Part shown: in pieces, positions 14,914-58,001 of the stretch
How the letters are laid out: the number at the start of each line of letters is the position of its first letter
Numbering within the stretch: the first letter of the stretch is position 1
Source of the DNA: Hoplostethus atlanticus
Lineage: Eukaryota; Chordata; Actinopteri; Trachichthyiformes; Trachichthyidae
Reading direction: 5' to 3'
Length of the DNA stretch: 64,000 nt
NCBI GenBank assembly: GCA_034670405.1
Contig: JAXDDX010000001.1
Span: 12,757,501 to 12,821,500 of the forward strand
Translations under genes and position numbers: made by a program
Notes under the pieces: model-generated
The model's input: the letters and a program-made list of their open reading frames with translations, nothing else
What the model was told of the DNA's origin: nothing
The model's database searches: none

Positions 14914-14930
14914 ATGGATTGGTTAATGGG
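14914..14930 (+). CDS. mob2: MOB kinase activator 2, first coding exon (MDWLM-G)
   Basis: ATG GAT TGG TTA ATG GG followed by donor GTGAGT. It encodes MDWLM plus the first two bases of glycine, matching the start MDWLMG-KSKAKPNGK of mammalian MOB2, where the first exon is this short. The ATG has A at -3 and G at +4. MOB2 is a small zinc-binding MOB-family protein that binds NDR1/NDR2 (STK38/STK38L) kinases and competes with MOB1. The call rests on six residues, the phase, the CpG-rich promoter and the dusp8 neighbour, which agrees with human DUSP8-MOB2 order and strand. The shared exons are not in the window, so the next exon lies at least 49 kb away. Confidence 0.75.
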
Positions 14931-17190
14931 GTGAGTACAGCTAACTTGGCTAGCTAGCTCCTATGACAGGTCAACCGCGCAGTCTGTCTGATGCTGGTTG
15001 CAAATTCACCGCTGTGTGTTTGACACCACCGCTGCCACCAGAATCAAATTAGACGAATGTCTTATTGAATACTGTCAAAATTCTACTTTGCCACATTAGC
15101 TAGCCAGGTAGCCTGTTGCCTAGCCTAGTGTAGCTCTGCTAGGCTAGCTGGGTAGCATAGCTGGCAACGGTTTCATTTTGCAACGGTAACCCAACCTACT
15201 GTTACCCAGCCGATATTTTGGGCATCTCCGTGGCCTACGGCTAACTAGCCAGCGACGGCAGCGCCCAGATTAGGTGGTGAGAATATTTGTTTAGAGGCCA
15301 GTTTGCTGTGCAGGGAGTGTATTTATAGGAACGATTTACGCAGCAAGTGGCTAACGTTAGCTGCCTGTCAATCTTGCTATCGCGGCTGTGCCCAGTTTAT
15401 TTCCTCTGCAAGGTGCGCCTTCGCTGGCCAGCTTTTACACGAACTAACATTAACAGTCATGCTAACTTGGCTAATTTGCTAGCCTGGAACAGAACATTGT
15501 TCTGGCCAACGAGCTCGCTGCCAAAGAGTATAGCTTCCTTACTTGTGTCAGCTAGTATGAGACTAAATTAATTTAGTTGACCACAAAAACCCACAGGCCC
15601 AGTCTAGTGAGGGTGACAAGGATAAACAAAACATTACCAATGTTGAGTGGTTGCAAAAGCATTGGTTAAATCAGCTATGAAACACAGCATCCTTTCTCAA
15701 TAACGCGACATCTAGATTGAGGTGCCTCTAACAAGTGTAGGAAAAGCTGTGTGTGTTGGGATGATGAGGAGATGGCACCTCCCTGGAGTTGATGATGCTG
15801 GTTTCTCTGCTGGTTTCGGCTTGGGTCCTGCTTGTAAAAGTGCTCAGTTTGGGTGACAGATGGGGTAGATGATTATAGAGGCCCATGTCTAAAACTAAGT
15901 GCTTATACACTTCATATTTCCAAGACCTTCATATTCAGGCTTAATTTATGATAACAGTGTAAGAGTTATATCCATTCCTCCCCGACCCCTACTAGGTGTG
16001 CTCTCATAGAATCCAAATAATTTGTTTTCTGGGATTTACTTACACATTTACAATGCAAACTCATGTGAATTGCCTTGTATCATCAGTGCCTAAGTCATAT
16101 TTGCCTGTGAGTTAAGGAGGAAGTCAATAAAGTTACACTCAAAGCTTTTAATTAACAGTTGCTTTGGTATATTAACACATTTCCAGGTACATAGGTAAGC
16201 CGTCATCTCACACTGTGAGGCTTAAGTTTCCAGAGTCCTGGAAATCAACACATCTGTTCTCTGTAATATCACAAAAGGATTTGAGTCACACAGTAAGGTG
16301 TGTCGCTGTCAGGCCATTCTCTTTTCTGACTGGCTATGTAGCTGGCTGGACGGCAGCGATACTCTGTTGTGAGCAAAGTAGGGCAGGGTAAAGGAAGGGT
16401 GGAGGCCGTTGTTAGGGGTGGTTCTTCACAGTCTGACATTTTGGCTTGGGAGATAACAGTGCAGCCCCTTGATACCCCCAGCCAAAATACCAGCCATTGT
16501 TGTACTAGCGCTGTTGTTTTTCCTCTTTTTTTTTTTTCCCTCCCTCTGACATTTGTTGCCATCGCTTTGTTGATTGGTTCTTGCAGTGACAGATCTCATG
16601 TTCATTCAGTATTAAATGGTGTACCTCCTCATCCTTTCTTTCACTCAGTCACTCAGTCTTTTATTCCCAACAGTTGGTGCTGTCAGACCTGGTTTGCTGA
16701 GTGATGTGTTAGGAATCCAAGTGTAAGAGCAACACTCAGTAAAGTCTTGCTGTCAGAGGAGCAGAGGAAAGGAAATACCTACATATGGACTGTGAGAGAC
16801 ACTGTAGTGTAGAGTCATTTCCATGACATTTGCACGCACACAAAGTCAGAGCAGAACCCATCAACTGGCGCCCATCCCATGTATAGAGGTTATAGAGAGT
16901 TAAACCCAGGCTATCGTCTGCCTGTGTGCTTGCTAACAGCCAGCCAACCAACCAGTTGGACTCGAACAATGGGTGTCACTAAATGTAGCTGGTATTATGA
17001 AAGCTCCTCCCTCATAGAAAAGGTGTCAAAGGTTATTTTAGTACGGCATCCTTTGGACTTGCCATTGTGCTCCTGAAGAGCAAGCTCTCAGAGGAAATGA
17101 GTCATGGTTATTTATATATTATTTATGGACTACATTTTTAAATTCATTACAAGAGGAGTAGGGTACCTACGATGTCATTACTGTCAGGTC
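14931..17190 (+). other. mob2: mob2 intron, proximal part
   Basis: Just after the donor the sequence is dense in GCTAGC and TAACGTTAGC words (14940-15560), typical of fish intron flanks. No further exon was recognised. Confidence 0.5.
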
Positions 17191-17214
17191 TGTCTATTCA
17201 ACTGTGAAGGACGA

Positions 17215-17720
17215 CACAGACAGGACTGACGGAGGGAGAGATGTGGCATGGAGGGAGGAAGGTGGAGCAAGAATATGACTGGAGCAAGCATGAGAGTGCA
17301 AAGGATGATGGAAGAAAAGGTGGCGCGGTGAAAGAAGCTGATTTGGGAGAAATGGGAAGATGAAGAGAGGAAGGCAGGAGTGCGATGAATGAAAGGGGAA
17401 GTGGAGTGGAGAGAAGAGAAAAGAGACTGATGAGGGAAGGGCAGGCTGATTCACAGAGATGGGGGTATAGGAGATGTCATGCTCCTGACTGATGGAAGAG
17501 AATTGAAGGATGGAGAAAGGGGATATGAATGCTGTTGATGGAACGGTTGATTAGAGAGAAAAATAGAGGAAAATGGAGTGGGACGGAGATTGGCTGATGG
17601 AAAGGATGAAGCTCCCCAGGGAATCCAGTGGAAGGATGAAGCAAATGACAAGCCCATGATGGCCCACTAATGGCAAATGGATTGAAGGAGGGAGATATGG
17701 AGAGGCAGCTTATGGTGGGT
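17215..17720 (+). repeat. Long degenerate purine-rich tract
   Basis: About 500 bp in which the plus strand is dominated by A and G in irregular words (GGATGG, GGAAGA, GAGAGAAG) with no fixed period. The open frames on the minus strand here are Ser/Pro/Phe-rich translations of the complementary pyrimidines. Confidence 0.6.
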
Positions 17721-17947
17721 GACAAATGCAGCAGAGCAGAATTTGTCCTCTAGTGTAAGCCTGAGGCAGAAGGGCAGACTTACTCGTAGGCGGCTGGGTG
17801 TGCAAATGAAGCCTCTTGGTTGCATCTACGCGTTTGCGTACTAGCCTGTGTATTACCTGTGTATTAGCCTAAAGCCTAAGCCAGTGTGTGTTTGGGAGGA
17901 GGGTGGTGCAGGCTGTCCATGCACTGTGTTTCTATTTTGTCGGACAG

Positions 17948-18084
17948 GGAGAACGAACGCATCCTCTTGGAGCCGAATGACCTCATCTGTCCGGATTCAG
18001 AGTCAGACAGGACGTTACATCACAGGGGCGATCTACAACGCCTACATGTGTCTTTTCCTGCCGGGGGAAACGGGCAGGCTTGAC
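17948..18084 (+). other. Exon-like segment, unrecognised
   Basis: A good acceptor (TTTCTATTTTGTCGGACAG) is followed by an open, CpG-containing frame reading RENERILLEPNDLICPDSES then DRTLHHRGDL, to a stop near 18083. The composition looks more coding-like than its surroundings, but no clear donor follows and I do not recognise the product. It may be a conserved non-coding element, an exonised repeat or chance. Confidence 0.2.
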
Positions 18085-18250
18085 AGATGTTTAATCCCCT
18101 TGCTTTTGAGTGATGGATTGGTAATGCTGAGAGGAGAGATAGAAGGAAAACTACAACAGCTAAGTGGGGCAGACTTTAGGCTGCCTGACCTGCACAAGAG
18201 TCAAATCTAATGTACACTTAGCTTGCACTGCACCACTTGTCACTGTATGG

Positions 18251-18734
18251 TAACACTACATGGCCAAAAGTATGCAGACACCCCTTCTATTGAGTGGATT
18301 CAGACACACCCACGCTGACAGGTGTATAAATTCAAGCACACAGCCATGCAATCTCCTTAGACAGCAGAATGGCCCGTACCGAAGAGCTCAGTGACTTTCA
18401 ACGTGGCTCCATCATAGGATAGGATGAACTGATAGGATCGGTTTGTCAAATGTCTGCCCTGCTAGAGCCGCCCCGGTCAACTGTAAGTGCTGTTACTGTA
18501 AAGTGGAAGCATCTAGGAGCAACAACACCTCAGCCGCAAAGTGGTAGACCACACAAGTTCACAGAACGGGACCTGCTGAGTGCTGAAGCGCAGGAGAATC
18601 ATCTGTCCTCAGATTCCCAGAAGAGTGGAGGCTGTTGTAGCAGCAAAGGGGGAGCAACTCCATAGTAATGCCCATGATTTTGGAAGGAGATGTTCGACGA
18701 GCAGGTCCACATACTTTTGGCCATGTGGTGTATA
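18251..18734 (+). mobile_element. Internally deleted Tc1-like transposon
   Basis: The left end reads CACTACATGGCCAAAAGTATG and the right end is its inverted counterpart CATACTTTTGGCCATGTGGTG, flanked by TA dinucleotides as expected for Tc1/mariner insertion. After the left end comes the transposase N-terminus (ATG 18369, MARTEELSDFQRGSII...), with an in-frame TAG soon after (IIG-stop). The coding region is then cut: near 18600 the sequence jumps to the 3' end block CAGAAGAGTGGAGGCTGTTG. A full element of this family is about 1.6 kb, so roughly 1.1 kb is missing. The copy is non-autonomous and inactive. Confidence 0.9.
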
Positions 18735-19012
18735 TAGACCGCGCCAGAGGAATGCAAATGATAGTATCAAACATTTCAGCACTGTAGGCTTTGAGATGAG
18801 GTGAGCTACAGCTTGCTGTAGAGCAAACCTTGGGATGCCATTTGTTCAGGTAGCCAGGTATTCGACTGCCTTTCAAACACAATCTTTGTTGTTGGTTGCC
18901 TTGATCATCTTGTTTTTCTCCAGGCGGATTTCCATCAGATGGCACATTGTTAGGAGAATAACTGAAGCGTTTACGGGTATGTTCCTGATTATGAACATCT
19001 CACCCATACCGT

Positions 19013-19100
19013 GAAAGTGCCCTTGAACAAGGCACTGCCAACTGCTCCAGGTTAGCTGCTCAGGGGCCAACAGCACAAGACTACTGGGCAGCTCTCAAGT
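19013..19100 (+). mobile_element. SINE fragment
   Basis: GTGCCCTTGAACAAGGCACT followed by CCAACTGCTCCAGG is a block shared by many teleost SINEs (consensus GTGCCCTTGAGCAAGGCAC...). The tRNA-like head is not clear here, and the downstream part runs into a short GT repeat and a C run at about 19139-19157. Confidence 0.55.
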
Positions 19101-19453
19101 GTGTGTGTGTGTGTCTGTAACTCTCCCTCCCTCTACAACCCCCCCCCCCCCCTCCCCCGGTTGTCACTGTGATAAGACTGTGTTCTCAGTCACCTTATCT
19201 GCTTGCACTGTTAGATGAGAGCACGGTAATGTCAGGTGATTGGGCCACTGCCTGCGATAGACAGAAGAGAATTCATGAGAAACTTCCTGCTACGTTGTCT
19301 ATTTCTTATGCTCCTTGTGTCTGGGGGTTTCACTTTGAGTAATATCCCTTTATGCTCTTGACTCATGCCGTGTATACATAGAGGCTCTAAATGGGGATTT
19401 TGCACTCCGCAGCCCTGCCCTCATTCAACCTGCCTGCCTTATTTCCATCTCCA

Positions 19454-19455
<2 letters not shown>

Positions 19456-19491
<36 letters not shown>
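19456..19491 (+). repeat. (CA)n microsatellite
   Basis: Pure CA run. The surrounding 19100-22600 stretch holds no supported gene, only short T/C-rich patches such as 20525-20600. Confidence 0.9.
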
Positions 19492-19494
<3 letters not shown>

Positions 19495-22400
19495 ATTGCA
19501 CACACAGTGTCAGCCCAGGTGGCTGTTTCCGCTGCTCGCACCGCGGATGCAGTGTTGATAATAGCCTCTGACAGATGAGCAGGCATCATCTCAAAGCATT
19601 CACCTGCTCTAGAGTTGAATCTAAGCGACGCTGTCAGAGTGTTGCTTGGCCTAGGTCTAGAATGCAGTTTTGTTTTCCTGTCTATTTCTAGCTTTACAGT
19701 CATTCGCGCAGACACAGAGGAGTTCCTTGGTAGAGTGAGGGGTTATTAGGATTGATCTGAGGGCTGTGCAGCAGACTAGCTTACCAGAAGGCCCGACTGT
19801 CAGTCTGTGAAAGACCCATTAACTGGCCTACTACTGTTGCAGTGAAGAGAGCTTCTGTTGGCTTACCCTCTTATCAGAGCCTGCTGTAAGAACCCCACTC
19901 TGTTAATAATCAATTTATTGTGTCTGCCGTTAAACTTATTTTACAACTACAAATCCAAGGCAGACCAGGCCAAGATTTTATTTATTTTTTTAGGGCACGC
20001 AAGCTAGCCAAGCCTCCAAAGAAAAGGACACGGTGTAGTGATCCAAAACGACCCTGTGTTGTGAGTGGCAGTTAGCCCAGTGTCCCGACAACATGTTGAC
20101 TCACCACAGATTTCCCACCCAAGTTTTTGGACGGACTGAAAAAAAAAAGACTCTTTGATGCATACCTGTTGTCCATAAAACAGTTGACTTGCAAAAGTGA
20201 CACGTGTTGACTGACAGTTTATTAAAGTATCATTCAGTCAAGAAGACACTTGAGTCTGTGGAGTCTGTTCTGTTCTGTGGAATCCAGGTTTCCCAAAAGT
20301 CTTCAACACTATGGTCATATACGTGCATCAGTTTACAGTGAAGCTCAGATCAACTCCGTGCTCTGCTGCTGTAGCGTAATCGGGCCCTGGCCTTGGGCTC
20401 AGTTGCAGGCATCAGGCTATTCTACCGTGATGTGCTGCTGCGCTGAGGGGCTCGCCGGCTGGCAGGAATACTAGTTGGTTTGTTTACTCCAGAAAAGAGC
20501 ATTTTTCGTCCGTCTCAACCCTCCAACTCGCTCTCTGTCTCTCTCTCAGTCTTTCTCTCCCTGTCTCCCTCTCATTCTCTCCCCCTCTCTCTCTCTCTCA
20601 GGACGCTGATGTGTAGAGACGTTTGCGTGCTTGGCTGCTGTCGGTGCTGGACTGCTCAGCCGCACAGTGGAAGTCAGGGTTGAACAGGCCCAGGGCGGTC
20701 CAAGCCCTCTCAGGGAAATTGGTTAACAACAGAAGCTAGCAGGGTGTTAACAGCATTCTGAACTGAGGCTGACTGCAGGTAGGAGGATAGCCTACATGCA
20801 GGGTAGCATTGCTCATTCTATATGTATCTATCATGATGTTTCTGTGTGCTGCCCTCCATGTGTCTTTGGATGGGGGAACAGAGCAAGGAAAATGGGATGG
20901 GAGCAGGGCTAAACAAACAAGTCCTCAGCTGTCCTCCCTGACATCAGTCCCCTTCTCCTACCAGTTTGTGGTGACTTTAGCTACGAACAACATCACTATT
21001 CATGGTGTCCTTATTTTTGGAACATTAGTTTCTCATGTGAGGAAGAAGCGTCACTTTGGGAGATCGTGACAGAACGGCAGAGATGGTCGCAGCATGCAGG
21101 CGAACAGTACAGCACAGCCCTCTAGCATAGCCTAACTACAGCGAACCGTCTGTCAGCACGGCATCACTTTACATGGCGACAAATGAATGCAAAGTAATGG
21201 ATGTCATCTTTCATGTTTTGCCACATTATCCATTTTTAAAGATTTGATATTTCCCCGCTATTCAACCAAGTATTCCTTTTATTCGTGTGTGCATGGTCTT
21301 GTTCACACTCCTGAAACTAGTGAGCAGTCTCTTGGAGATTGTTCCACTTCCCCAGTACCACAGAGCATAAAGTGAGGAGCAGGGCCATCGCCACACCGTA
21401 AAAGCTCAGCTGTCATAGTTCAGAGGTGGCGATGACTTCAGGTTTCATAGAAAGGTGACACCCAGTGCCTGTAGGTGATCTAGTAACAGCCATGACTAGC
21501 GAATTTCAAGTGTTCTGAATCACAGAAATGATTGCACGTCTTCACACTCGCAATCGTAATACTTGCTGGTTAGCTTGTTCTATTGTCCCTTAGTGTTGCA
21601 GAGCAATCTTGAGCCAGCTGACCTCTAAAGCGAAGCTCTTAGTGAATGTGTGTGTTAAGTGAGCTTCCCCCAGGCTTGGAGACAGGGTACTGTATCACGG
21701 AGTGTAGTTTCTAGTACCTCGGCGCAGAACACTGAGGGAGATATAAAGGCTCTATTGAATGCCTCTCGAGGAGGTAAATAGCCTGGGTACAGGAACACAC
21801 ACACACACACTCTCTTGAGACGCCTCTCTACCTCCCCGTCTTCCCTTCTTTCTGAGGCAGGAACAGGGAGAGGCCCAGAAATGAATGCGATACCAGAGTG
21901 ACTCGGCAGTTTGCCTTTTACTGAATATGCATAAGTGCAGAATTGGAGACTGAGAAATTGTGCATACCTGTATTATTTTGTTTTTTTGAGTACTTGGAAA
22001 TGGAAATTCTGCCTATGTGGTCTCTTTTTTTTGCCTGTATGTTTTGAGTGAAGTTGATATTTAAAAGTCCTAGGGGCATTACATGCTGTGAGTGTGGTGC
22101 AACCCAATACTATGATAGATCAAGACCCTGCACACACAACCCAACTTGATACCTGGAGCTGGCTGCTCTTTTGAAGCTTCTCCGCCCACTCAAATCTGAC
22201 CTATCAGATGTTAGGCTATTTGTTAGCAGGTTGCTGTCACTTAATAATGTCACAAATGTGAAAATTGCTTACATTCAACTTAACAACCTGCTACTCATCC
22301 GGTAACCTGTTAGATGCACACTAGTAGTTCCTCTCTGTGATATGGGTATGTATACTGGGAAATGTATGATCTATTTATTTAGATAGATTTATTATCAGAA

Positions 22401-22679
22401 CCTTACTGTTGCCACTTGAGTATTATTTTAAAGATGTTCTACTCATTTATGGCCACACTGTTGTGTTCAGCTCCTGGCTTGGCTCGGGACGTGTGTGTGT
22501 GTGTGTGTTGCCTCTGTTTTACTTGGCAGGAGAGTGGAACCATGCTGTGACTGTGTTTACTCTTTCGTAACGCTCTGGACAGCCCTGCCCAGGGCCGAAC
22601 TGGCACTGCCAACGGATGGAGGGAGAGAGAAAAGAAAAGACTGACAGAGGGCGGGAACAGTCATATGATTAATCAGCCG

Positions 22680-22680
22680 G

Positions 22681-22742
<62 letters not shown>
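22680..22742 (+). repeat. (TC)n microsatellite
   Basis: TC run with single interruptions by CCCTC and CGCTC. Flanking sequence shows no gene. Confidence 0.9.
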
Positions 22743-24473
22743 GCATGTCTTGTTGCTTGTCAAAAGGGGGCATTTTTCTCAAAATATTTTCCCCCCCATT
22801 TGTGGAGCACAGGGCCAACGTTGCCACACAGATTAGGGACTTCACTGGCTCCTCCATAGCAGTATGAGCAGCCACAGGCCTGGGAGCAGCTACTGTGCTG
22901 TCAAAGAGTATCATATTCATGGCCTGCTGTCGGCTAGAGCTGACTGAAGATCGGCTAAAATAAGCTGAAACCCCCCGCAGCAGGATTTAGGGTTGTTTTT
23001 GCCACCTACATGCACAGGACCGCTGCAAAGGATCAAAGCAGCATTCACACATTTGAAGGTTCATTTCCTAAGCCTTGTATCAAACCCACACGTTATGCCC
23101 TGCATTAAGGCTGGGCATTTTGGGATATTTTGCAGTAGTGCAATATTTCAAATTCGGCACTGGCTCTAAAACATTTTGTTTAATGAAAATACCTTTGAAC
23201 TAGAAGAACACTTTCCATCATAAGGCTCATTTTAAATCAAATTTGGTACCAAATAAATGAGTACAGTACCACATTGCCGAGGAGATGTCCTGGTATACTG
23301 CATCATATTATGCCCCGTTACCCTACACAGTCATTGTATGGTGTCTGTGTATCTTTTCTTATCTATGTGTGCTGGGTGTGCTGACATGGTTTTGACATGG
23401 TATGAGCACGTTAACTGTGACTCTGAAGGAAGCATGGATGGAGTCTGAGACAGGGACAGCTGGAGGGACCTGTACCCATTGATACATACACACACACACA
23501 CACACACACAGGGTGGTTTCTGTGCCTGATGTCCATTTTTGTCCTCCTGGGCTTGCTGTTGAGAGGATGTAGATGCTTATGACTGCCAACGACTACGACC
23601 TTTGAGCATCAGAGTTGGGCCGGGTCATGACGAGAGAAGTGAGGAGGAAAAGAGGGACTAAATGAAAGAATAAAGGAGGAGATTTGGGATGTGAAACGCG
23701 GGGTGGGAAGTGGGCGGAGATGGGGAGCTGTGGCAGTGCAAATTCAAAACACCAGAGTGAGAGTGAGAGGAGAAAGAGGGGACAGAGGAAGAAGAGGGCA
23801 GCTGATAAGGAGGAGAGCAGCAGGAGAATATAGAGAGTGCAGCGGTGGAGGGGTAAGGAGGGAAACGATAGTAGCACGGAGGGGATGGGTGAGATATGGA
23901 GATAAATGGGAAGCGGTGGCGAGGGTCAGAGAGCTAGATTAGAAACAGCAGAGGTCTGCACTAGAGGACAGAGAGGGAGATTTAACAGCAGGGGCCCAGC
24001 CAGCCTGTGACGGAGAGAGAAATGGAGTTTGTAGCTTCGTGCAGGTCAGAGGGACAGAGAAAGCCTGACAGAAGGAGACAGAATGGGGGTGAAAACCAGT
24101 CACAAAAACCCATTGGATATCTTCTCTGAATTTGTCTGTCATCCTAGCTTGCTGCCTAAACCCTTAAAACCCAGATTTTAGCCCAATAGAACAGAGGTCC
24201 TCATTCAGCTAATGAGATAACAGCTCATTCTGGGTGATATATTTTTTTTCCCCCCATCGAGAAGTACTCTGTAATTGTACGAAACTGGTGTGGTCGGCTC
24301 CTCGGGCTAGGCTTTGGTTGAGCGGCTAAATCTGTGCAGAGCTGGTGGGCTGCTAGCATTGGTGTAGCTAGCTAGGTTTGTCCTTGGCGGCTGAGGCCTA
24401 GGCCGCTAGGCTGGTCTGAACTGTAATTGGATTAGAGAGCAGTGCGCTGCATCAGGCAAGGCAAGCCGGGTAT

Positions 24474-24505
<32 letters not shown>

Positions 24506-25317
24506 ACACTTGTAAAGTACACTTCGCTGTAGGGAGCCAAGTTCAGCTCAGTCCTCGAGGCAGTCAGAATAAAACAGGCCCTGATTCACCCTCCTCCTCC
24601 TTCTTTCCTCTGCATCCCTTTATTATCTTTATCCCTTCTTAATCACCCCCCACCCCGGCTGTATTTGTATATGTGTGGGCATGTGTGTGTGTGTGTGTAT
24701 GTACGTGCATGTTTGTGTATGTGTGTGAAAGCGAGCGTTTGTGTGTACATTTATTCCCGTCCCATGAATACCCTCTCCAAATGGGATTACAGGACTTGTG
24801 TCCAGCCCATGCTGAGAACAAGCGGGAGAGTAAGTGAAAGGAGGCAGAAAGAAAGGGGGAGAAAAAGAGAGTCAAGAATAGAGAATAGTTTGAAATAAGA
24901 GTAGAGAGTAGGACATGATAGATGTGAGGAATAAGAAGTCCTATTTGGCTGCAGTTCAGGAGGTGACAGCAAGCGAGTTGCTCATGACCTTCTCAGATGT
25001 GAAATTCCTGTTTGGCAGCTCCAGACAGGAAGTAGAAGGTGATGTCATGGATGTGGTGTGCATCCTGGTTCCCTGCTTTAACCTGAGGCCTATCTCTGAA
25101 TGGTTTCCTTCACTACACCATCAGCAAGGCAGAACTGGAATAGAGGTCATTTAAATTTTTACAGATTTTATTTTTTTAACTCAGTTAGACTTTAACTGGG
25201 TACAGTGTGTTTCTCATTCTCTCTGTCTCATTCACGTGTCATGCCTGAGAACCAAATAATCATGTTTCTCCCACGGCTGTCAGCGAGACATTTTTCAGAC
25301 AATATTTATGTTTATAT
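22743..25317 (+). other. mob2: mob2 intron, no supported gene
   Basis: Contains (CA)n at about 23488-23510 and 24473-24500, and a degenerate purine-rich stretch at 23600-24080 similar to the one at 17.2 kb. GCTAGC-rich words occur at 24300-24420. No exon recognised. Confidence 0.5.
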
Positions 25318-25371
25318 TTACAGTTTACATTTTAGGTATTTAGCTGACGCTCTTGAGGGATTACAATGGAA
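25318..25371 (-). mobile_element. SINE/LINE tail fragment (minus strand)
   Basis: TTTACATTTTAGGTATTTAG followed by CTGACGCTCTTGAGGGATTACA is the reverse complement of the same fish tail found at 12.2 kb (GTAAGTCGCT...GATAAGAGCGTCTGCTAAATG), mutated at several positions. Only the tail is recognisable. Confidence 0.65.
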
Positions 25372-25639
25372 GAATAAGCTCCAATCCCCAGATAACCAAG
25401 ATTACAAGCAACGCAATGCTAAGGAGTGCAGAGGTTAGAGTGATAGCGCTCTGAGTGCATGATCATGTATACGTACCAGGAAAAAGAGAGATAGACATCT
25501 GTCCGGCCTCCCAAGGAAGAGTGTAAGGTGTACTAAAGCTCTCAGGTGGTATGTTGCAAACTGGAAACAAAGGGTGTGTTTTGAGGATTGGTGGACAGGT
25601 TCAAACAAGAGGTTGGCATTAGAAGAGAAGGCATGAAGG

Positions 25640-25805
<166 letters not shown>

Positions 25806-26342
25806 CCACGTATGTGCGCATTACCACAGACGTGAATGTGGTCGGGGCAAGATGCTAGAGAGTGGAGAGGCATCCGTAAGATTAGAGAGAGACGGCGATA
25901 GAACGAGGCCAGACCAGCACCAGCAGCCATATGTTTCATATGTCTCCTCTGACAACTCTGCCGTATGGCTCTGATCCGTCCATATGGCCTGTACATCTAC
26001 TCATCTACTACATCTACTTTCTGCTACCCTGTCAGCCGAGGGACGGAGGGATGTAAGGATGGCTTGATGGAGGGAGGGCGGGAGGCAAGTGGGCAGCATG
26101 TGTACAGAGATAGAGATTGGGAACGTGGGAGGGAGGGTACGGCTCTGATGTGGGATGACGGAAGGAGTTGGATGTTTTTTGGAACCTCGGGAGGACAGAT
26201 GTTAAAATAGAATGAAGGCTAAGAGTCAGTAAAGGAGAGCACGGAGGGAGATGGTGCTCAGGGTCGTCAGATTTCATCTGCTTGGTTTGATGTCACCGTA
26301 AGGAGCTGCTGACTACACCTAAGGGGGGGGGCAAGGCTAGAT

Positions 26343-26418
<76 letters not shown>

Positions 26419-26540
26419 GTGACCCCTGTGAGGCCTCCAATATCCCCCCGAGGAAGTGTGTGCAAACACTGATAAGTCTGACTGACTGAGGGCTTACAGA
26501 GGGGCACGCTGGGGAACATGCTCTGTCAGGGTGTTGTACT

Positions 26541-26613
<73 letters not shown>
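26343..26613 (+). repeat. Paired (AC)n tracts flanking about 128 bp
   Basis: Two long AC tracts, about 26344-26414 and 26543-26613, are the same length (about 70 bp) and orientation and are separated by a unique spacer. Direct repeats of this size could delete the spacer by slippage or single-strand annealing. Confidence 0.95.
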
Positions 26614-26616
<3 letters not shown>

Positions 26617-27843: not shown

Positions 27844-28081
<238 letters not shown>

Positions 28082-28197
28082 AAAAATCCGTTTCCTCTCA
28101 TAGAGGAACAGTAGGTCAGGGGTTTTGGTCTGCCCTGTTGAGCTCATGTAGCTCAGGGCCAGATAGAGGGAAGAAATACAGAATACACATCCCATCT

Positions 28198-28226
28198 GTG
28201 TGTACTGTACATAATACAGTACACAC
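28198..28226 (+). repeat. Perfect 12-bp inverted repeat with 5-nt loop
   Basis: GTGTGTACTGTA, loop CATAA, TACAGTACACAC. All 12 pairs match. It lies 120 bp after the giant GA tract. Confidence 0.85.
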
Positions 28227-29250: not shown

Positions 29251-29263
29251 TGTGCACACACAC

Positions 29264-31380: not shown

Positions 31381-31435
31381 AGAAAGACATGGAGAGAAAG
31401 GTAGAATGGGGGGAGGGGGTAAAAGATTTAGAGAG

Positions 31436-36100: not shown

Positions 36101-36797
36101 TATAAATAAATATATATAGCTCCTCAGATAGGAAACGCTCTTGAAACATGAGAGCCTCTACTGCACCGTGAACGGAAAAAGAAACCTGCGCGTATTAATA
36201 ATGTGAATCATTTGTCATAAATGGGCCGCAGCCTCACGTGATTTTGCTTTTAACGCTACTCCGATTGGGGTTTTCAAGTCCCCGGACCGGATGACATGTC
36301 GATCGGATGCAGATCTGATTGGGCTGAAAGAAAGTTTCGAGTTTCTCCGGCGCATCTTTGGAGTATAGCGCCGCGCGCTCTGCGTCAGTGGGGCCGCGGA
36401 CACAAAGAGCGCGTGAGCCACAACGTTTTCCAAGTTGCACAAGGAGGTCGCGGCACAACTACATTCATGCAGCGGTCGCTACATAACCCGACGAGCCCTG
36501 TTTTCGTTTTAATCGAAACGCTTGCTTGCTATCGATAGCCTTGCCCCCGACTTGTAAACCCTGCCCTACGGAAACTAAAGGGAGGGGGGACCGGAGAAGA
36601 GGAGAAGAAGGAGGAGGAGGAGGTCTGGGGAGAAGCACATAGATAGAGAGCGAGAAAGGAGTAAGGTCTGCATAGCTTCCGTATTGTTGTTCCTCCTCGT
36701 CTGCAGCCGTTCAGTAACACGGTGGGTTTTCGAGGTGAAACGAAAAGCTGAGACGCCGTCAATTCTGGATTTCTTCATCCGCTTCCTGTCGTCCAGG
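36101..36797 (+). promoter_or_regulatory. mob2: Candidate mob2 promoter 2 and leader (CpG-rich)
   Basis: A TATA-like ATAAATAAATATATATAG occurs at about 36100. A CpG-dense stretch at 36230-36560 follows, with CACGTG (about 36235), an inverted CCAAT (GATTGG, about 36262), GCCGCGCGC and TGCGTCAG. A purine-rich leader (GGAGAAGAGGAGAAGAAGG) leads to ATG 36798. The CpG density contrasts sharply with the AT-rich intron upstream. The start site is not defined. Confidence 0.5.
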
Positions 36798-36835
36798 ATG
36801 AGGTTTAAAAGGAACGGCTCCTATACATTAAATAG
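36798..36835 (+). CDS. mob2: Candidate alternative mob2 first exon (MRFKRNGSYTLN-R)
   Basis: ATG AGG TTT AAA AGG AAC GGC TCC TAT ACA TTA AAT AG, then donor GTAAGG. It encodes MRFKRNGSYTLN and the first two bases of Arg or Ser. The codon is split 2+1, exactly as in the MDWLM exon at 14930, so it would join the same downstream exon. A sits at -3 of the ATG. The peptide is basic and has no signal or membrane segment. The assignment to mob2 is inferred from position, strand, phase and the CpG-rich leader; the peptide itself I do not recognise. It could instead start an unrelated nested gene. Confidence 0.5.
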
Positions 36836-40280: not shown

Positions 40281-40318
40281 ATGGGGGTTTTGGTGTGCTG
40301 CGACTGCTTCTTCTATAG
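40281..40318 (+). CDS. mob2: Candidate alternative mob2 first exon (MGVLVCCDCFFY-R), lipidation-type N-terminus
   Basis: ATG GGG GTT TTG GTG TGC TGC GAC TGC TTC TTC TAT AG, then donor GTAACT. The peptide is MGVLVCCDCFFY plus a split Arg or Ser codon, phase 2+1 as in the other first exons. Glycine at position 2 with a small/Cys residue at position 6 fits an N-myristoylation signal, and cysteines at 6, 7 and 9 would be palmitoylation candidates. Joined to the MOB2 core this would give a membrane-tethered form. ATG context: T at -3, G at +4. The mob2 link is inferred from strand, position, phase and promoter character. It could also be the start of a different nested gene. Confidence 0.5.
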
Positions 40319-41439: not shown

Positions 41440-41493
<54 letters not shown>

Positions 41494-42180
41494 TGTGCTT
41501 ACGTATGTCATACGTGTCAGGCTCCACATGTGTATGTATACGCCTTGGTAAAATGCACACAGAAGCCTTGTAAAGGCAGGGCTTGTGCCAGAAGGACTTC
41601 TTTCCCCCCCCCAATTATCACCAGGCCAGGGGTGGGACTTGACCGGAGAGATGATGCCTTATTGGCTCATTAAGGCAAAATGGCCCGTCATTTCTATTTT
41701 TAGTGCTTCCTCTCCCTCAGCATCTCCGTCAGCCAATCAATTGGCTTGGCAGTGATGTTATATGGTTTGATTGATGTGTGTTTGTGTGAGGCACACCCAT
41801 ATGAACAGGTCCTTGTTGACCTCAGCCTGGGCCAGCCCTCAGTGCTCTGGGCTCCTGTGTTTCAACAGTAGCTTTGTGTGGAGTACAAACTGCCTGCCAA
41901 CACTCAATAAACCATGTCAACTCCAATGTTGATCACCATGCTTAGACTGGAGCGATTGAAAAGTCTTTCAACATATGACGTAAAGTGAAATAAGTTGAAA
42001 TGGACCTTCATTCCTTGGACCCTGTATTATGTTGAAGTACAGTCAGGCATAATGACTTGATGTTTTGCACCTAGGTGAACTTGGGGAACAGCAGGATACA
42101 CTTAGCTAGGTGGTGCTGAGGTCAGACAAAGAAAACATTAGCTGGGTTGACAATGAGCCTACTATTGGAATAATAAGACC
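40319..42180 (+). other. mob2: mob2 intron with two long CA/GT tracts
   Basis: (AC)n at 41297-41349 and (TG)n at 41442-41488 face each other across 92 bp. A word AAATGGCACGCAGCCAGC is repeated near 40703, 40793 and 40830. No exon recognised. Confidence 0.5.
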
Positions 42181-42184
42181 AGCC

Positions 42185-42421
42185 CATTCTGAATTAAGTT
42201 GATTAAGTTGAATTTGGTATGAAAGCTCTGATCCGAGTACCGATACGGAGTATTTTCATAGGCTGCTGACTATTGGCCTGTAATGAAACAATTACAGGAA
42301 CAAATGCGTCGGCATCGATACTTCAGATTAATTTGCCAGTACGAGTACCTAGGGGCCACATCGACGCCGATCCGATACGTACAGATACTATCACCTGATA
42401 CATCGCTGTGCACCTCTAGTG
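42185..42421. mobile_element. Degraded interspersed repeat rich in CGATAC words
   Basis: Many copies of CCGATAC, GAGTACC and ATCGATAC with mirror forms (for example GAGTACCGATACGG, GCCGATCCGATACG) and an end reading GTGCACCTCTAGTG. This resembles fish DNA-transposon-derived repeats with TATCGGATCGG internal words and a GTGCATCCCTAGTG terminus. The family is uncertain. Confidence 0.45.
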
Positions 42422-43412
42422 TAAATCTTTGATAATCCATTAAAGAGGATACTATTAGCAGCTAATAGACATGTATATGCTTTAACAGACTGCTGTCTAT
42501 GTTTGGAATACAATGTAAAACCAGCAGGTTCTTCATTTGAATCAGCAGAAACTCAAATATTGTGCAACGCTGCACAACGCATGATGATTATTCAACTAAG
42601 CATATCAAAAACAGCTTTATTCTGATTACATGCTTTGGTGCATTTACACAACACACACCTTGTTGGATCACTTTATGTAGCTTTCAAGTACTTCCTTTCG
42701 AATCTTCAATCGGAGGGAATTCATTTGGAAAGATACAACATTCTGCCTATAACCGTAGCCTTTGACCTTGCAGAGACTGCTTGGTAATGAAAAGGTGACG
42801 ATATCATGTAACATATGTTAGTTGTGAGTTGTGGCACTGTCAGTATGTCTGTCAGTTACCGTGCTGCATTGTGGGTGACCGTCCTCAGAAGAGTTCTATT
42901 AAAGTTTAGCTCAAACACAGTGACCAAGCTTTGAGGTTCGACCTTTGGTTTGGGCTCCTGGTCTGTTGTGTCACCATTGGACATTAGCTTACCTTGATCT
43001 ACACATGTAGGCAGATGTGAGTGCACACAAACACACACATACACACACATGTTCTCTCTAAAACCGGATCACTTCTCTAGGGCCTCTTCCTACACAACAA
43101 TCCTGAAGCAACTACCACTGTTGGAGTTGAAGCCTGATTCACCAACGTCTTTTCAGTTCCTCATTTTTGTGTTTTTCTGTGTGTTTCTCTCAATCAAGAG
43201 GTCAAAAGTTAAATCTGTGGTAATTTCCTCTTCTTCTCTCAATTGCAGCATCAAACAGTAAATTCAGTTTTCCCTCAAGGTTTTGTTTTGTAACGGTTCT
43301 GTGCCAGTGCGCTGTATTGTTGACTTGCTGGTAGAAAGTAGGAACATTCAGACCTGGAGGCTCCATCACATGACAAAAGTTTGTGTGTGTTTGTGTGTAT
43401 TACTGGGTGAGT

Positions 43413-43457
<45 letters not shown>

Positions 43458-45306: not shown

Positions 45307-50837
<5,531 letters not shown>

Positions 50838-50980
50838 CTCCATGCCAAGGTTACGAGTCCCTATCATACTCTTCCCAGGAAAAGGAAGGTTGAGAATTCT
50901 GAGAAAACCTGCAGCCTTGGAGAACCTTTTGTGTTTCCTCCAGCAGAACACAAGGCGTGACACACACACACACACACACT

Positions 50981-51195
50981 TTGTAAGTCAAGTTGTTTAT
51001 TTATATAGCCCTTTTATTGAAAACAAGCCTTAAATGACTTTACAGGTCTAACTAACTCAGGCTGACAATCAGATTAGGACGCACAGTTGATTCAGCATGT
51101 AAACAGCAGAACAAAACGCATGGAAGGGTGTAACTTACAGGAATGCCTCAGGTGACTTTTCAGGCCTAACTAAGTCAGCTGAAACTCAATCATTT
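50981..51195. repeat. Fish interspersed repeat with an internal imperfect duplication
   Basis: Starts with GTAAGTCAAGTTGTTTATTT and ATATAGCCCTTTTATT, a phrase common to high-copy fish repeats. Two similar blocks follow about 117 bp apart: TGACTTTACAGGTCTAACTA (about 51035) and TGACTTTTCAGGCCTAACTA (about 51152), each continuing into ..CTCAG/GTCAG.. and CTGA. Confidence 0.5.
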
Positions 51196-54100
51196 ATGAC
51201 AAATAAGATATTACAGAATACAATCAGAACAAAAGCACTCGGAAAGCACATAAAAGTACTCTCTGCAGACTCCTATCATGAGAAATATGAGACCAGTTTA
51301 AGGACAGATGAAGAATTCTCCTTAGTCCTCTGCTATTACCTTGCAGTTGTTGGTTGCCTTTCTTATAAGGTGCAAGCCAGCTCAGTCAGTATTGAAGCTC
51401 GGTTTACCCCCCCCAGGCTGCCTTTGTGTGCCTTGTCCCAGGAACCTGATGTTAATGACTTTGCCTCTGACACTGACAAAGCAGCGTTTGGTCTCTCACC
51501 ATTAGCTGACAGAGCCAACAAACCTGACCCTGCCATACACCTACAGCCATTAACAGGCAGGACAGGCTCATAACCACTTCCCTTTTTACCAGCAGGCCTG
51601 AGGACAAAGTCACATCTGGCAGAGCTGTGAACACCTGTGGCTCAGTGGCATGTCATTCTATAGGGTGCTCCTCAACTTCCTTACCTGTGTGTCTTGATAA
51701 TCTTGATAATCGTTAATCTCTAACCTTGCTGCCTCTGTCAATTCCCTGACCATTATTTCATTGCTCACTTTGCACCTGAGCCTGTTAGTGTGTGTTTGTG
51801 TACGTGTTTGCGCGCCCGTGTCTTGCTCTGTGTGTGTGTTTGTATGGGTTTGTGCACACTGCCCTTTGACAGACAGGTGTTTGGCTGCCAATTTGGTGAA
51901 TTATGGGATGTTGCAGGCTCGGCGGTAGACTCTCCCCTGCTATGGAATGCTGGGAGGAGGAGTGCACTGGGGGCCAGGGCATGCTGTGACAACCTCCCCC
52001 GTTCAACCGCACTCTCTCACTCCTCTTATCCCTCCGATTCTCTCTTATTACTATCATTCATTATCCTTTTTCTGTTCTGTTTTTCACCTCCCTGCTCCCT
52101 TTGGCAACCCTTTCTCTGTTGCCCTCTCTTCACCCCTCTCACTTAACTAATCTCAACTACTCCCTTCTCCTCACTTCCTTCCTCTTCATTCCTCTCCTTC
52201 TCCCATTGCATCCTCCTCTACTCTTCATCCTTCCATTTCAGCCAATTCCTACTGATATGATAGCGTTTAATCTGAGCAGTAGCCATGGAGATGGTGTTTT
52301 ATAAACGCCTTGACACGAGTCTGGTGTTTCTCACCTCCTGTCTTCCATCTCACTAAAGCTCTCTTCCTTCATCAGTCATAAACCAGTCAGAACATGGCCT
52401 CCCATCTTTCAAACACACTTGGCTACTCTCTCTCATTTGCAAACTTCCTTTTTGAAATGGCTCCAGTGCCAAAAAGTATTCAGAAACAATTTGAGGTTTT
52501 AAAATGCAAGCAAACTTGACTCCTTATTGGATTATGGATGCAGTGGATTTTAGCTGAGTAAATCCTTTGTGCCATTACTGGTGTTAGCTGGAGCATTAGG
52601 TTATACCCTAATGTGTTTGCTTATCTTGTTGGGGTGATCGACCTGCACTTCATGAGCAAAGTCAACCTGTTCTGGAGCACTTTTAGTTCACTTTTTAGAC
52701 TCCCCTTTCTCCTTCTCAGTTCTCTTCTGTCTCTCCTTTGTTTAGCCAGGCTGTGTGTGCAGCGACTGGTGGCATGTCTTTGCATGCAGCCCTCTCCCTA
52801 CTGGAATGCAGAGCATTAGGAGGAGGGATGGAGAGATGAAGACAGGGAGAAAAAAGGAGAGAGTGGGTAGAGGGAAAAGGAGATGGAGAGAGTTGGGGTT
52901 ATTCCCCTATAAGGCCTCAGGGAAAAAAGGAGATAATAGGTTAAAGCGAGGTAGAAAACTAATGGCCAAGACCTGGTATAGTCCAGTCCATCTTTACCAA
53001 GCTGAAGCATCATAGTGATGTCTGGATTGCCATGTACTGTCTAGTATCAAATATGACCGCAAGTACAATTTGGAGCTTAACCCAATGTGTATATCAGCCA
53101 GCCCACAGTGCCCTGTAGAGGGGAGGAGTGCATGCCTTTGAGGGAGGGGTGACAAAAGGTTGACCGAGAAGGTAGACTCCCACACACTTGCTGCTTTGTT
53201 CTGTTTGCTAACGGCTATTCTTGTCCAGATTTTGTTTGTACATGCACACACACACACACACACATACTACATAGGCTCTATATGGGCCACACATAGTCAG
53301 CATTTCATGCAACACATACAGCCCAGTCTTTCCTGTAGGCCTGTTCCAGGATCAGTTCCAGTAGGTGTTGCAGTTTAAGAATGGCTCTTATTCGGATATT
53401 TATATCACAATATATGAACGCTTGAGCTGTAGTGATTGTATTTACATTTTTGTAGATGTGAGGCAATTTCCCCCCACAAAGGAAGCACAGCAGTCTCTTG
53501 TCTGATAGAGGAGGTGCAGATTGGTATTGCAGGGCAGGTCGCAGGGTTCAGTGTGTGGAGTGTCTCCTGGCCCTGCTAACCTTTCTCTGGGCCTATAGAA
53601 ATCCCCCAGGCACTAAGACCGTCAGCCTGCACTGTTTTCACTGGCGAAGGCCTTACCTAAACACACTACACACTCGCACGCACCCAGAACGCCACACCAA
53701 CTGAAGTTCCCGAAAGCCTCAGGGAGCCACTTGGAACCCCTCTGATTTGAATTAATTAATTTTTTTCATGTGGTTGGGTGTCTGACCTGTCTGTCATGTA
53801 GACCCAAGGTATGATTGGCTGGAGATTCGTTTTGGCAGGGGCGGGATTGAGCTGTTGCCAAGTCCCGAGGCGCATCTGCTGTGGTTGTGACTCAAATAGG
53901 TGGAATGCCCGCTGACTTTCAGACCCAACCTGTTAGGCCAGCCAGCCAACCATCTCTATTCAGCGGTGAATAGAGTGGGCTAAGTGCCCCCGGGCCAACG
54001 CGCTTTGTCCAAGATGTGACACTCGAAGAACTTTTAATGGGTTCATGCTGGTTGTGATTGTTGTGAATTCATTAATCGCACAATGTCACTTTGCTATTGC

Positions 54101-55126
54101 AATCAATATGTAAAATCTGCATTATTTCCATTCCTTAGATTTTTCTCGACCAATTTGACTTTTGTCTTTCTCTTAACTAGAGTGCTGTGACGCCAGCACC
54201 ACAGTGATTTGAATTGCTTGAATTTTTCCACCGCCGTCTATATTTTCCTTGCATTATCTCATGGTCTGATCGCAGTTATTGATGGTTGGCTGCACGTATC
54301 AGATCAAGGCTTTACACAGGGCCATCAATTTTGCCTACCAGTCACAAGGCCTTTATTGACACCACAGTATTTCCGTAAACCTCCTTTATTTTACTTCCAC
54401 CTCCGTTTTTAATGAGTGATGTGTTCTTTATTAAATCTGGGCCTTTGCTATCTGTGCCTCCGGAGTGGTTGTCTTTGATGAGGTTAGTATACTTGAAGCA
54501 GCTGCTTAGTACTGATACAAAGGCAGGCTGTTCCTTCTCTCTAGACCTATACATGATGTTATATTAATCTGAAAAAAAATGGTATGTCTCTACAAACATC
54601 ACAGCTTTAGATTAAGGCTACTGATTTTTTTTCTTTCATTATTGAAAATGACAAAGAAAAGTCCTATGAAACCTGCATATAGGCCTGGTGTGTTTTTTAT
54701 GAGAAGTAGACTATCATTTGAACTTAATTGCAGAACATTTGTGTGTGTGCTCATGTGCGAGCACCAAGGCATGCCCGTGAAAGACTGGGTATGTGTAGTG
54801 TGGTGCTGGCCTCGGAGACAGCATCTGGTTGCTGGTTACAGCAGGTGGCAGATGAGTGATGCCATGTCTTGATGAGTGTGACGTCAGCAGACAGAGAAGA
54901 AAGAGTAAACCGCTGTCCACCAGACAACGGAATGTGGTCGCTGGTTTCCACCCGCGTCAGACATTGCCTAAGAATTAGCTTCATGTGTGCCGACGGTTCC
55001 AAGTTGAACTTCTCAATGGCACTGTTTCTGTCTTTATGGGAAAAGACTGATGCGCACATGATGTCTTTCACTGGTGCTGGTCCATGGATGATAGTTTAGA
55101 TAAATCCATATGAAAGTAAATCCACA
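51196..55126 (+). other. mob2: mob2 intron, no supported gene
   Basis: A 125-codon frame at 51196-51573 begins in repeat sequence and has no recognisable domain. There is a T/C-rich stretch at 52000-52230, a purine-rich one at 52815-52960 and (CA)n near 53244-53264. No exon recognised. Confidence 0.45.
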
Positions 55127-55229
55127 CTAGACAAGACAAACAACGTTTCAAACTCGATCAGTCTTCGTCAGGTGACTTTGTCAGGTACCTGGCAAAGACC
55201 AATTAGAAACGTTAACGTTTCTTGTCTAG
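55127..55229. mobile_element. Short element with inverted termini (CTAGACAAGA...)
   Basis: The left end CTAGACAAGACAAACAACGT and right end AACGTTTCTTGTCTAG form an imperfect inverted repeat about 100 bp apart. The interior complement reads CTGACGAAGACTGATCGAG then TTTGAAACGTTG, resembling the CTGATGAAG...GAAACGTTG phrase of widespread fish repeats. Probably a small non-autonomous element or fragment. Confidence 0.45.
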
Positions 55230-56258
55230 CGATTAGTAGAATGCTGTTGTGCAGACCTACTTTTAAATGTACTGTTTCTATCTACCTGTTGTTAGTGTAC
55301 AGCTCACATAAGATGGAGGAACCTATAGGTGCGACTACATATTGCCTTATAATTAGCCGCCTGCTTTTTTCCTAATTCATTAAAGTTCTTTGTCTGGACT
55401 AGCGCAGTGCTGAAGGTGGAGGCCCCAGCCAGGCCATGCCCCAGTGATCCTGAATGGCTGTCTTCTATTTTAGGTGACCGCACTGATCTAATAGTTAGAA
55501 GCAAATTGATGGAAAGTTCTCTGTGCACAGCAACTGCTTTCGCTTGAGTGGTCACCTCATGTAGCGGGGCTACATGACACCATTTAAGACTGATCACCCT
55601 TAACCCCCCCCACATACACACACACACACACACGCACACACGCACGCACACACACACTGACCTCTGTACAGTTGCCTCTGTCCCCTGTATAGCGCTATCT
55701 CCCGCCTACTTGCTCAGTCTCTGATTCACTCACTCACTCATTTGTGCATACCCATGCACACACAGTCATACACACTCACACTGCTCATACCCCCCTTTCC
55801 GTATTGTTCTCTGTATTCTTTATGGGCAGGCTGATACTATATTTAGCTCCTGGGGAAAGGTCTGTGCCCTGTTCTGGTCTCTCTCCCCTGCTCCTCTCCA
55901 CCACCACTGCCACAGCAGCAGCCACCCACAGGGCCTCTGGGTCCAGACAGAGAGGCATGTACCCGTAGTGTGGTAGGCAGGAAGGAAGGGAATCAGTCAT
56001 GCAGGATGAGGGTGCAGGTTGATTGTAAAGAGAGACCCCTATCAGACCCTCTGTCCCTTTGATACTTACAGATAGATTCACTTAACTCTGAACAACTAGG
56101 GGCTTGTTGACACAAACAAGTAGCAGTCAGAAGGTCCACCAGTCCACACTAGGCATGCTCCACTGGCATACCTCACAGAAATGTACAAACATAGTCCTCA
56201 CACACCCCCTACACTATCTCTTCCATCGCTCTCTTTCAATTACTTACACTCACCCATA

Positions 56259-56298
<40 letters not shown>

Positions 56299-57660
56299 AA
56301 CTGTGCAGGGCTCCAGAGATCCCTTAGATTAGCGTGTCTTTGTGTGTATCCATGCTACAGCAGCCGGCTGGTATTTCTCACATCTGCAGCTGTGCTGCGG
56401 CCCCACAGATCCTGTCTGAGGAGTGAGAGAAGGACAGACATGGCAAAGAAAAGGGGAGACAATGAGAAGGAGAGGCAAGTAAAAACAAACCAAGAATGGG
56501 AGGGGAAAAGTTTAAAGAGAGAATAAGAGAGGAGGTTTGGTGATGGAGAATAATTAGAGGGAAGGAAGGTGACAAAATGATGGTTCCATAACACAAGTTA
56601 TAATCTTCTCATGAGTCGCAAAGCCCTCAATGTTCAGTGTTAATTTCCTCCCCTCCTTTTCTTAAGGGTTGGTGGTTCACTGCAAACTTTCTTCTGAATT
56701 CTTAATTTGAATCACTTCATATCCAAAAGTCACTCGGTTATCATATCCGACAATTCCTAGATTTCTCTGTGTATACCCTTGTGAATTTGGCCACAAGCCT
56801 GTCACTGAAACCTCCAGGTATGCATATGAATCTACCTTTCTATGGCTGTCAGAGCAGGCTTTGTCTGATTCCCTCACCTGTGCTACAGCTTCCTTAGAAA
56901 AGTCAAGTTTGAACATGCCTGCCCGCTGCCAGTCTGTCATAGTTTGGCTCCAGGTGAAGTTCAGAAACAACAGGAGGAATGTCGCCCCAAAGTCCCAGCA
57001 TGCATACTGTGCAAACCTCTGCTTCACCTGGCACAAGTCCTCCTACAGCTAGGAGTGAGGGATTTTGAGGCACCACACACTGCTAACTCTGGATGGTGTA
57101 GCAGCAGAGATGTAGTGGAGGGTAAACTCACCTAAACTTTAACCCACGTACATTTTTATGATGTGAATTCATAGTACATGTCATACTTAGTAGAATCAAA
57201 CTGCTTTATATGAAGATATGGTATTTTAAGTGAGGAAACATACAATAATGCTTTCCTGAAAATATAATTGTTTTTGTTTATATTGGTGGTTGCTTCCTCT
57301 ATGAAGATGACCAACAAGGTCATAGTTAACCTGCCTTTTTATTTACCACTACATCACTGATAAGCGGTATTGAAGTATAGGTTGATAATATTGAATTATG
57401 GGTAATGTTTTGCTAGTTTTGGTACAACTTTTTAGCATATTTACCAAATTAACTCTCTTGTTTTGCATGGAAAAGGGGGTCTTTGTGTATAGATACTTAT
57501 TCTTGTGTGCGTGTGTGCATGTGTTTGTATGTATGTATGTATGTATGTATATGTATAGTGTAGTGAATTTTTTTTTTTATTGCATTGCAGTTACCAGTTA
57601 CTAGCTAACCACCTGTTGCTACATTGTAACTACACTTCAAGGAAATGCATGAACCACGTC
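55230..57660 (+). other. mob2: mob2 intron before the last alternative exon
   Basis: (CA)n at about 56262-56295 and a (TATG)n run at 57527-57550. An unrecognised minus-strand frame is listed separately. No plus-strand exon recognised. Confidence 0.45.
56677..57036 (-). other. Unrecognised 119-codon open frame (minus strand)
   Basis: This is the longest non-repeat open frame outside dusp8 in the eastern part of the window. It contains a hydrophobic stretch FGATFLLLFLNFTWS near the N-terminus, followed by mixed polar sequence. I do not recognise a family. In sequence of this composition a frame of this length is plausible by chance, and no promoter or splice support was seen. Confidence 0.15.
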
Positions 57661-57675
57661 CACATGGGCAGACTG

Positions 57676-57885
57676 TGACGTCACCCACCCCCTTCCGATG
57701 ACTCTTCCCTCCGGTGATTGGTTGAAAGTGGAGAAAGGGGAGGGTCTTTTCGAAAGTATTCACAAAGTTTTTTCCCCCTGTACAGTCAGTTTCAGATAGA
57801 TCAAATCCTGAGAGGAATTCGCGTAGGTATAGTGTGAGTGGTCTAGAGAGAGATATCCTCCCATCATATTTACATGTATTAAACT
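57676..57885 (+). promoter_or_regulatory. mob2: mob2 promoter 4: CRE, CACCC box, inverted CCAAT
   Basis: A perfect cAMP response element TGACGTCA at 57676-57683 is followed directly by CCCACCCCC (KLF/Sp type) and, at 57717-57721, an inverted CCAAT box (GTGATTGGTT). The ATG at 57886 lies about 200 bp downstream, which gives normal promoter-to-start spacing. No TATA box is clear. This arrangement suggests activity-dependent (CREB/ATF) control of the 57886 exon. Confidence 0.6.
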
Positions 57886-58001
57886 ATGGTCGGTGACTAC
57901 TGCTCTCTCTCTGGAGATAAAGCGGATATGCACTCGCAGAGAAACCCCAAAAACGGACTAAGTTGCAAAATGGTGCTTCAAGCAGTGGGAAAAGTTCTAA
58001 G
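57886..58001 (+). CDS. mob2: Alternative mob2 first exon (MVGDYCSLSG...MVLQAVGKVL-R)
   Basis: The exon runs from ATG 57886 (A at -3, G at +4) for 38 codons plus AG, ending at AG|GTAACG. It opens MVGDYCSLSGDKADMHSQ and closes KMVLQAVGKVL-R, the last codon split 2+1 as in the MDWLM exon. A second in-frame ATG at 57970 (A at -3, G at +4) would give MVLQAVGKVLR-. To my recollection a VGKVLR-type start is also used by mammalian MOB2 transcripts, but I cannot verify that here. The CRE/CCAAT promoter just upstream supports a real first exon. If right, the protein joins the same NDR-kinase-binding MOB core as the MDWLMG form. Confidence 0.65.

Follow-up and report, generated by a model that had tools for sequence, protein, structure and literature searches.

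Do several separate ATG exons on one strand of a fish chromosome feed a single mob2 gene, and could the choice among them send MOB2 proteins to different places in the cell? The question was raised by a sequence-only reading of a window, meaning here the whole 64,000-base stretch of DNA that was analysed (C1:12757501-12821500 of a 633-Mb genome). It proposed four alternative first exons, referred to below as A to D, which would be spliced to one shared acceptor beyond position 64000 and serve one mob2 core, so that the isoforms would differ only at the N-terminus.

Four first exons in frame with one MOB2 core

All four exons lie on the plus strand, together span 43 kb, and are in frame with exon 2 of mob2. 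Exon A (14914-14930) has 17 bases, encodes MDWLM followed by the split codon GG, and ends at the donor GTGAGT. Exons B (36798-36835, donor GTAAGG) and C (40281-40318, donor GTAACT) are each 38 bases long and encode MRFKRNGSYTLN and MGVLVCCDCFFY, respectively. Exon D (57886-58001, donor GTAACG) is longer, with 116 bases encoding MVGDYC...GLSCKMVLQAVGKVL; like B and C, it ends in the split codon AG. On re-reading, the coordinates, strand, ATG starts, donors and 2+1 codon split proposed for the four exons were all exact. Exon D was also matched by the protein search of the own genome. It contains a second in-frame ATG at 57970 in a strong context (AAAATGG), from which a shorter protein beginning with MVLQAVGKVLR would be made.

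The shared acceptor was found after GCAG at C1:12823496. This is window coordinate 65996, 1,996 bases beyond the window end, and it is in frame with all four donors. The first base of exon 2, a G, completes the split codon as glycine for A and as arginine for B, C and D, and the frame continues with KSKTKPNGKK. Exons 2-5 of mob2 lie in the adjoining 10 kb, with AG/GT at all acceptors and donors, and the exons from 65996 onward encode a complete MOB2 core. The distance from the first exon to exon 2 is 51,066 bases for A, 29,161 for B, 25,678 for C and 7,995 for D, and the predicted proteins have 236, 243, 243 and 269 residues, respectively. Judged by its gene content, the genome is that of a fish, and the window holds the 5′ half of its mob2.

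The Mob1/phocein domain (PF03637) scores above its cut-off at C1:12828829-12829502; the same model gives 214 bits for the orthologue P0021 and 221 bits for P0001. Over 100% of its length, isoform D shows 92% identity with P0001, a MOB kinase activator 2a. Other MOB-domain loci of the genome reach 33-45% identity in the own-genome protein search. The gene is MOB2: annotated MOB2 proteins resemble it more closely than MOB1, MOB3 or MOB4 do. A second mob2 copy, sought as an internal comparison, was not found in the genome, and matches of at least 86% identity all fall at the C1 locus. From orthology, we infer that the encoded MOB2 would bind NDR1/2 kinases. An intronic piece at 62660-62772 resembles a segment of P0012, a MOB2 gene model from Dissostichus, and contains a stop codon in this genome; it is perhaps a conserved non-coding piece absorbed by the annotation.

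Protein homology, not codon phase, links the exons to mob2

The identical phase of the four exons had been presented as a coincidence expected about once in 27. Applying a strict donor pattern to the plus strand of the window gave 36 donors, of which an open upstream ATG reaches 8, 6 and 12 in phases 0, 1 and 2, respectively; A, B, C and D are four of the 12 phase-2 candidates. The phase argument is weak because 12 sites in the window satisfy the same rule. We therefore rejected the phase coincidence as proof of a shared gene, and it is protein homology that decides. In a junction test requiring a match of at least 60% identity at the junction to known MOB2 N-termini, 13 of 131 N-termini matched B, 10 matched C and 65 matched D. 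The eight other phase-2 candidates matched 0/131. Exon A also gave 0/131 and rests on other evidence.

To follow the starts into other species, we used database proteins clustered at 90% identity. A search with isoform D matched 687 proteins, 120 of them listed, and searches scored on residues 1-42 of C and A gave 29 and 39; the combined sample comprises 133 distinct listed proteins. The start of B, MRFKRNGSYTLNR, occurs exactly over its 13 residues in 9 of these, and MRLK[RK]NGSYTL in six more (geckos, snakes, tortoise, goose). The 13-residue start of C, MGVLVCCDCFFYR, is exact in 8/133, including salmon, catfishes, minnow, Danionella and the sturgeon protein P0066, and is thus identical over 13 residues in a sturgeon and several teleost orders. 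For D, MVLQAVGKVLR is present in 43/133, and looser forms bring this to as many as 62. Among the listed matches, both fishes and tetrapods have B and D, cartilaginous fishes have D as well, and C occurs in ray-finned fishes; no C was seen in tetrapods among them. Conservation across orthologues holds for B, C and D, each of which is found in databases directly before the same MOB2 core. Together with the one in-frame acceptor and the one complete core, this supports the proposal of isoforms that differ only at the N-terminus. B, C and D are almost certainly alternative first exons on one core, judging from these sequence comparisons.

The same can be said of A with slightly less assurance. Its assignment to the MDWLMG start of MOB2 stands in so far as this motif opens two of the 133 listed MOB2 proteins (P0070 from Anolis and P0127 from Arctogadus), but it drew no match in the junction test. 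Human MOB2 likewise begins with MDWLMG. MDWLMG-KSK, that is A joined to the core, was not found among the 90% cluster representatives. Short-tail isoforms hide behind one another in such clusters, which is the likely reason.

One listed protein, P0017, can be regarded as a cDNA-like case for exon C on the core. Its source label, 'lgn', is taken to denote assembled public reads, and it runs from MGVLVCCDCFFYR straight through the core to the C-terminal NHVTER (263 residues) on contigs no longer than 1,215 bases. In the locus studied here the same two parts lie 25,678 bases apart. Given introns of this size, such a protein would need spliced RNA or a retrocopy.

Sorting all 133 listed proteins by pattern left 34 without an assigned start, many of which look like gene-model artefacts or other starts. 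A fifth start type, E (...LLMALFHR), opens MOB2 cores in P0041, P0057, P0058 and P0074 (Polypterus/bichir, bowfin, conger and the mormyrid Paramormyrops), and by eye also in P0065 and P0126 (Arapaima, lungfish). When exon E was looked for from the start of the window up to exon 2, the best match anchored at the junction reached 6/11 residues (at 48220) and was not convincing; for this reason we treat E as missing from this locus or diverged in it. The same scan recovered B, C and D at 11/11, a trivial calibration since the letters come from the same sequence. When database N-termini were compared loosely with the window, many short chance matches were among those listed.

RefSeq-style isoform numbers run up to X8 among the listed MOB2 records; in other species, isoforms numbered in this way are predicted by annotation pipelines. 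Alternative-start isoforms of mob2 are thus already annotated, piecemeal, in databases, and mob2 is a real, well-conserved multi-start gene, ordinary in kind. The claim that such breadth is not a standard description of mob2 survives in part: the isoforms are annotated in other fishes, but among open-licence PMC papers we found none that reports alternative first exons of mob2 or lipidation of MOB2.

Promoter context and a possible non-AUG start

CpG content was measured as the best 600-base observed/expected ratio near each exon, against a window median of 0.36. The sequence-only reading had placed a CpG-rich or promoter-like stretch ahead of every exon, and this is true of three. The ratio is 0.82 before exon A (14015-14614), 1.12 in an island-like stretch before exon B (36149-36748), the highest near any of the four, and 1.02 around exon D (57787-58386). 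For exon C, however, the best value is 0.62, which is reached by 45 of 634 windows; its ATG has a T at –3. The palindrome TGACGTCA, of the CRE type, lies at 57676-57683, 210 bp upstream of exon D, and has two more copies in the window (38493 and 54879). We infer a promoter of its own for each first exon. Another CpG-richer stretch (42101-42900, up to 0.81), in which no first exon was visible on reading, may be an old repeat.

Exon B may extend upstream of its ATG. The 12 codons before it (36762-36797, plus strand) encode ILDFFIRFLSSR, which is similar to gene models of other species: identity over the 12 residues is 10 for Arctogadus, 8 for goose, 6 for viper, 5 for Danio, 4 for P0117 and 1 for Silurus. 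No other 12-mer of window frame 1 shares more than 6/12 residues with the goose 12-mer. An in-frame CTG at 36765 has a favourable context (A at –3, G at +4), and no in-frame ATG occurs upstream of exon B back to the stop at 36576. The similarity possibly reflects a non-AUG start, or else DNA conserved for another reason.

Predicted membrane addresses in tails C and D

Tail C has Gly2, Cys6, Cys7 and Cys9 (MGVLVCCDC), followed by hydrophobic residues and then by the lysine-rich start of exon 2, in which five of the first 10 residues are basic. It fits the N-myristoylation pattern (PROSITE PS00008), and A, B and D do not. Among 1,349 open 12-codon ATG peptides of the window, 25 fit the pattern, and only two of these, C among them, also have at least three cysteines in positions 3-10. 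The conserved frame of C begins at Met1-Gly2, since the residues upstream of it are not the same in the window and in P0017; all nine proteins carrying MGVLVCCDCFFY retain Met1-Gly2. A shark relative of C, P0119, begins with MDILFCFDCVLFR and, lacking Gly2, does not fit the pattern; P0086 starts with MCCDCFFYR. Thus, myristoylation of C would at best be restricted to ray-finned fishes. In the mechanism that we propose, N-myristoylation on Gly2 and palmitoylation on Cys6, Cys7 and Cys9 would hold MOB2, and the NDR kinase bound to it, at membranes. For the myristoylation itself, predicted from sequence features, we see a chance somewhat better than even.

The tail encoded by exon D consists of a variable linker followed by GLSCKMVLQAVGKVLR, which is nearly invariant across 28 aligned proteins from sharks to mammals. 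Its 11-residue end, MVLQAVGKVLR, has a hydrophobic moment of 0.68, a value reached by 0.3% of 5,000 shuffles. Exon D would add a short amphipathic segment before the core. No amphipathicity was detected in A, C or start E, and that of B was not significant; in their annotated form, A and B lack an anchor of this kind. A concrete prediction can be made for C and D only, because C alone fits the myristoylation pattern and amphipathicity is absent or insignificant in the other tails. In predicted structure models, residues 1-79 of isoform D and 1-45 of isoform C have pLDDT below 50, so that no ordered N-terminal structure is supported for the tails.

Weighing the explanations

The explanation that we favour, with a probability of roughly 0.6 for the whole, is a multi-start mob2 with one core, whose tails act as address labels and whose tail C is predicted to be lipid-anchored. 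At least four alternative first exons (A-D) would be selected by promoter choice and yield MOB2 proteins differing only at the N-terminus, which would likely be sent to different cell locations according to the first exon used. The tails would serve as address labels placed directly before the basic start of exon 2 (RKSKTKPNGKK), and this role taken by itself is probable. It could be argued instead that some of the exons are chance ATG-donor matches that remain unused, and that only A, plus perhaps D, serves mob2. Of the 12 same-phase candidates in the window, eight have no support at all, which would be in keeping with this, as would the missing CpG-rich flank and weak start context of exon C. 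Chance, however, cannot place B and C letter for letter on the MOB2 cores of other fishes (9/133 and 8/133 listed proteins, respectively), and homology of the starts has already largely refuted a view that we consider highly improbable.

A different objection accepts all four first exons as real and takes their N-termini as functionally neutral: promoter choice would provide tissue-specific expression, and the tails would be by-products of promoter position. Alternative first exons that serve mainly expression control are common, three of the four exons here have promoter-like CpG content, and the tails are short and predicted to be disordered. Yet strong, even residue conservation is not expected of neutral tails, and C is identical at 13/13 positions between teleosts and the sturgeon P0066, while the D core MVLQAVGKVLR persists in 43/133 listed proteins as the rest of exon D varies. 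We regard neutrality of the tails as unlikely. Doubt about tail C is narrower. It might be palmitoylated, or simply be a hydrophobic, protein-docking motif, without any myristoylation. The shark start MDILFCFDCVLFR retains two cysteines and hydrophobic residues but not Gly2, and proteins of the GAP43 type are anchored by N-terminal cysteines alone. Against this, Met1-Gly2 is present in 9/9 carriers of MGVLVCCDCFFY and the cysteine at position 6 fits the pattern, which leaves a C tail without myristate doubtful, though less so than neutral tails.

Going beyond the favoured multi-start explanation with its address labels, one may tentatively see in mob2 a switch by which the choice of promoter sets where NDR kinases go, the core being supplied with exchangeable membrane addresses at its N-terminus; we would sooner doubt than endorse this extended form. 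In it, ray-finned fishes would have evolved a natural, doubly lipidated MOB2, isoform C, hundreds of millions of years ahead of the acylation-tag fusions made in laboratories. D would be an amphipathic tag for membranes or organelles that sharks and mammals have both retained, and B would have a non-AUG form starting at the CUG at 36765.

Relation to known systems

As in multi-promoter genes with a shared acceptor, mob2 has several distant ATG exons of the same phase that fit one acceptor, and its structure would be usual for this class except for the number and age of the starts. The closest counterparts are annotated MOB kinase activator 2/2a isoforms of fishes and tetrapods (NCBI and UniRef names), which have the same core and, in many species, the same starts B, C and D as numbered isoforms. 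These are automated records, and among those retrieved none gives the starts a function or describes the full set at one locus. Src-family and similar N-terminal anchors combine myristate, cysteine palmitates and basic residues. They resemble C in having Met-Gly, nearby cysteines and then a lysine-rich stretch, but are not homologous to it; in mob2 the basic part lies in a shared exon and the predicted acylation part in an optional one.

Membrane recruitment of NDR by MOB proteins was reportedly described in a 2005 paper. Reviews state that NDR/LATS kinases are turned on when MOB1 recruits them to the membrane. According to PMC4880841, targeting MOB1 to membranes is enough to increase the activity of NDR1 and LATS1, whereas MOB2 interferes with NDR1/2 activation by competing with MOB1. 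Artificial myristoylation of MOB3C and MOB1 is discussed in PMC10480535. In the engineered proteins, an acylated tail at the N-terminus precedes the MOB domain and serves to bring NDR/LATS kinases to membranes (membrane-targeted MOB1, PMC4880841; myristoylated MOB3C, PMC10480535), and the membrane work on MOB and NDR named in the former used engineered proteins. Tail C is a candidate natural counterpart of such artificially membrane-targeted MOB proteins. Their tags are artificial, whereas start C would be natural and would sit on MOB2, the competitor of MOB1 according to PMC4880841. At membranes, start C might conceivably promote either NDR activation or NDR sequestration.

What is new here is a testable mechanism, the predicted lipid anchor of C and the amphipathic segment of D, and not the isoforms themselves. 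If MOB2 has promoter-chosen membrane-anchored and soluble forms, whether it inhibits or activates NDR may depend on the first exon that a cell uses. Experiments with a single cDNA would then miss most of mob2 behaviour, and a knockout or knockdown at one first exon would spare the other isoforms.

Neighbouring genes

Rfam and tRNA scans of the window gave 0 matches. Upstream of mob2 and on the same strand, 468-1775 contains the last exon of a dual-specificity phosphatase, whose closest solved relative is DUSP8 (E 7.2e-11); the DSPc fragment in this exon scores below its cut-off. Downstream, on the minus strand at C1:12831200-12841000, frames resemble by eye a Kir6.2-type inward-rectifier potassium channel and a sulfonylurea-receptor-type ABC protein.
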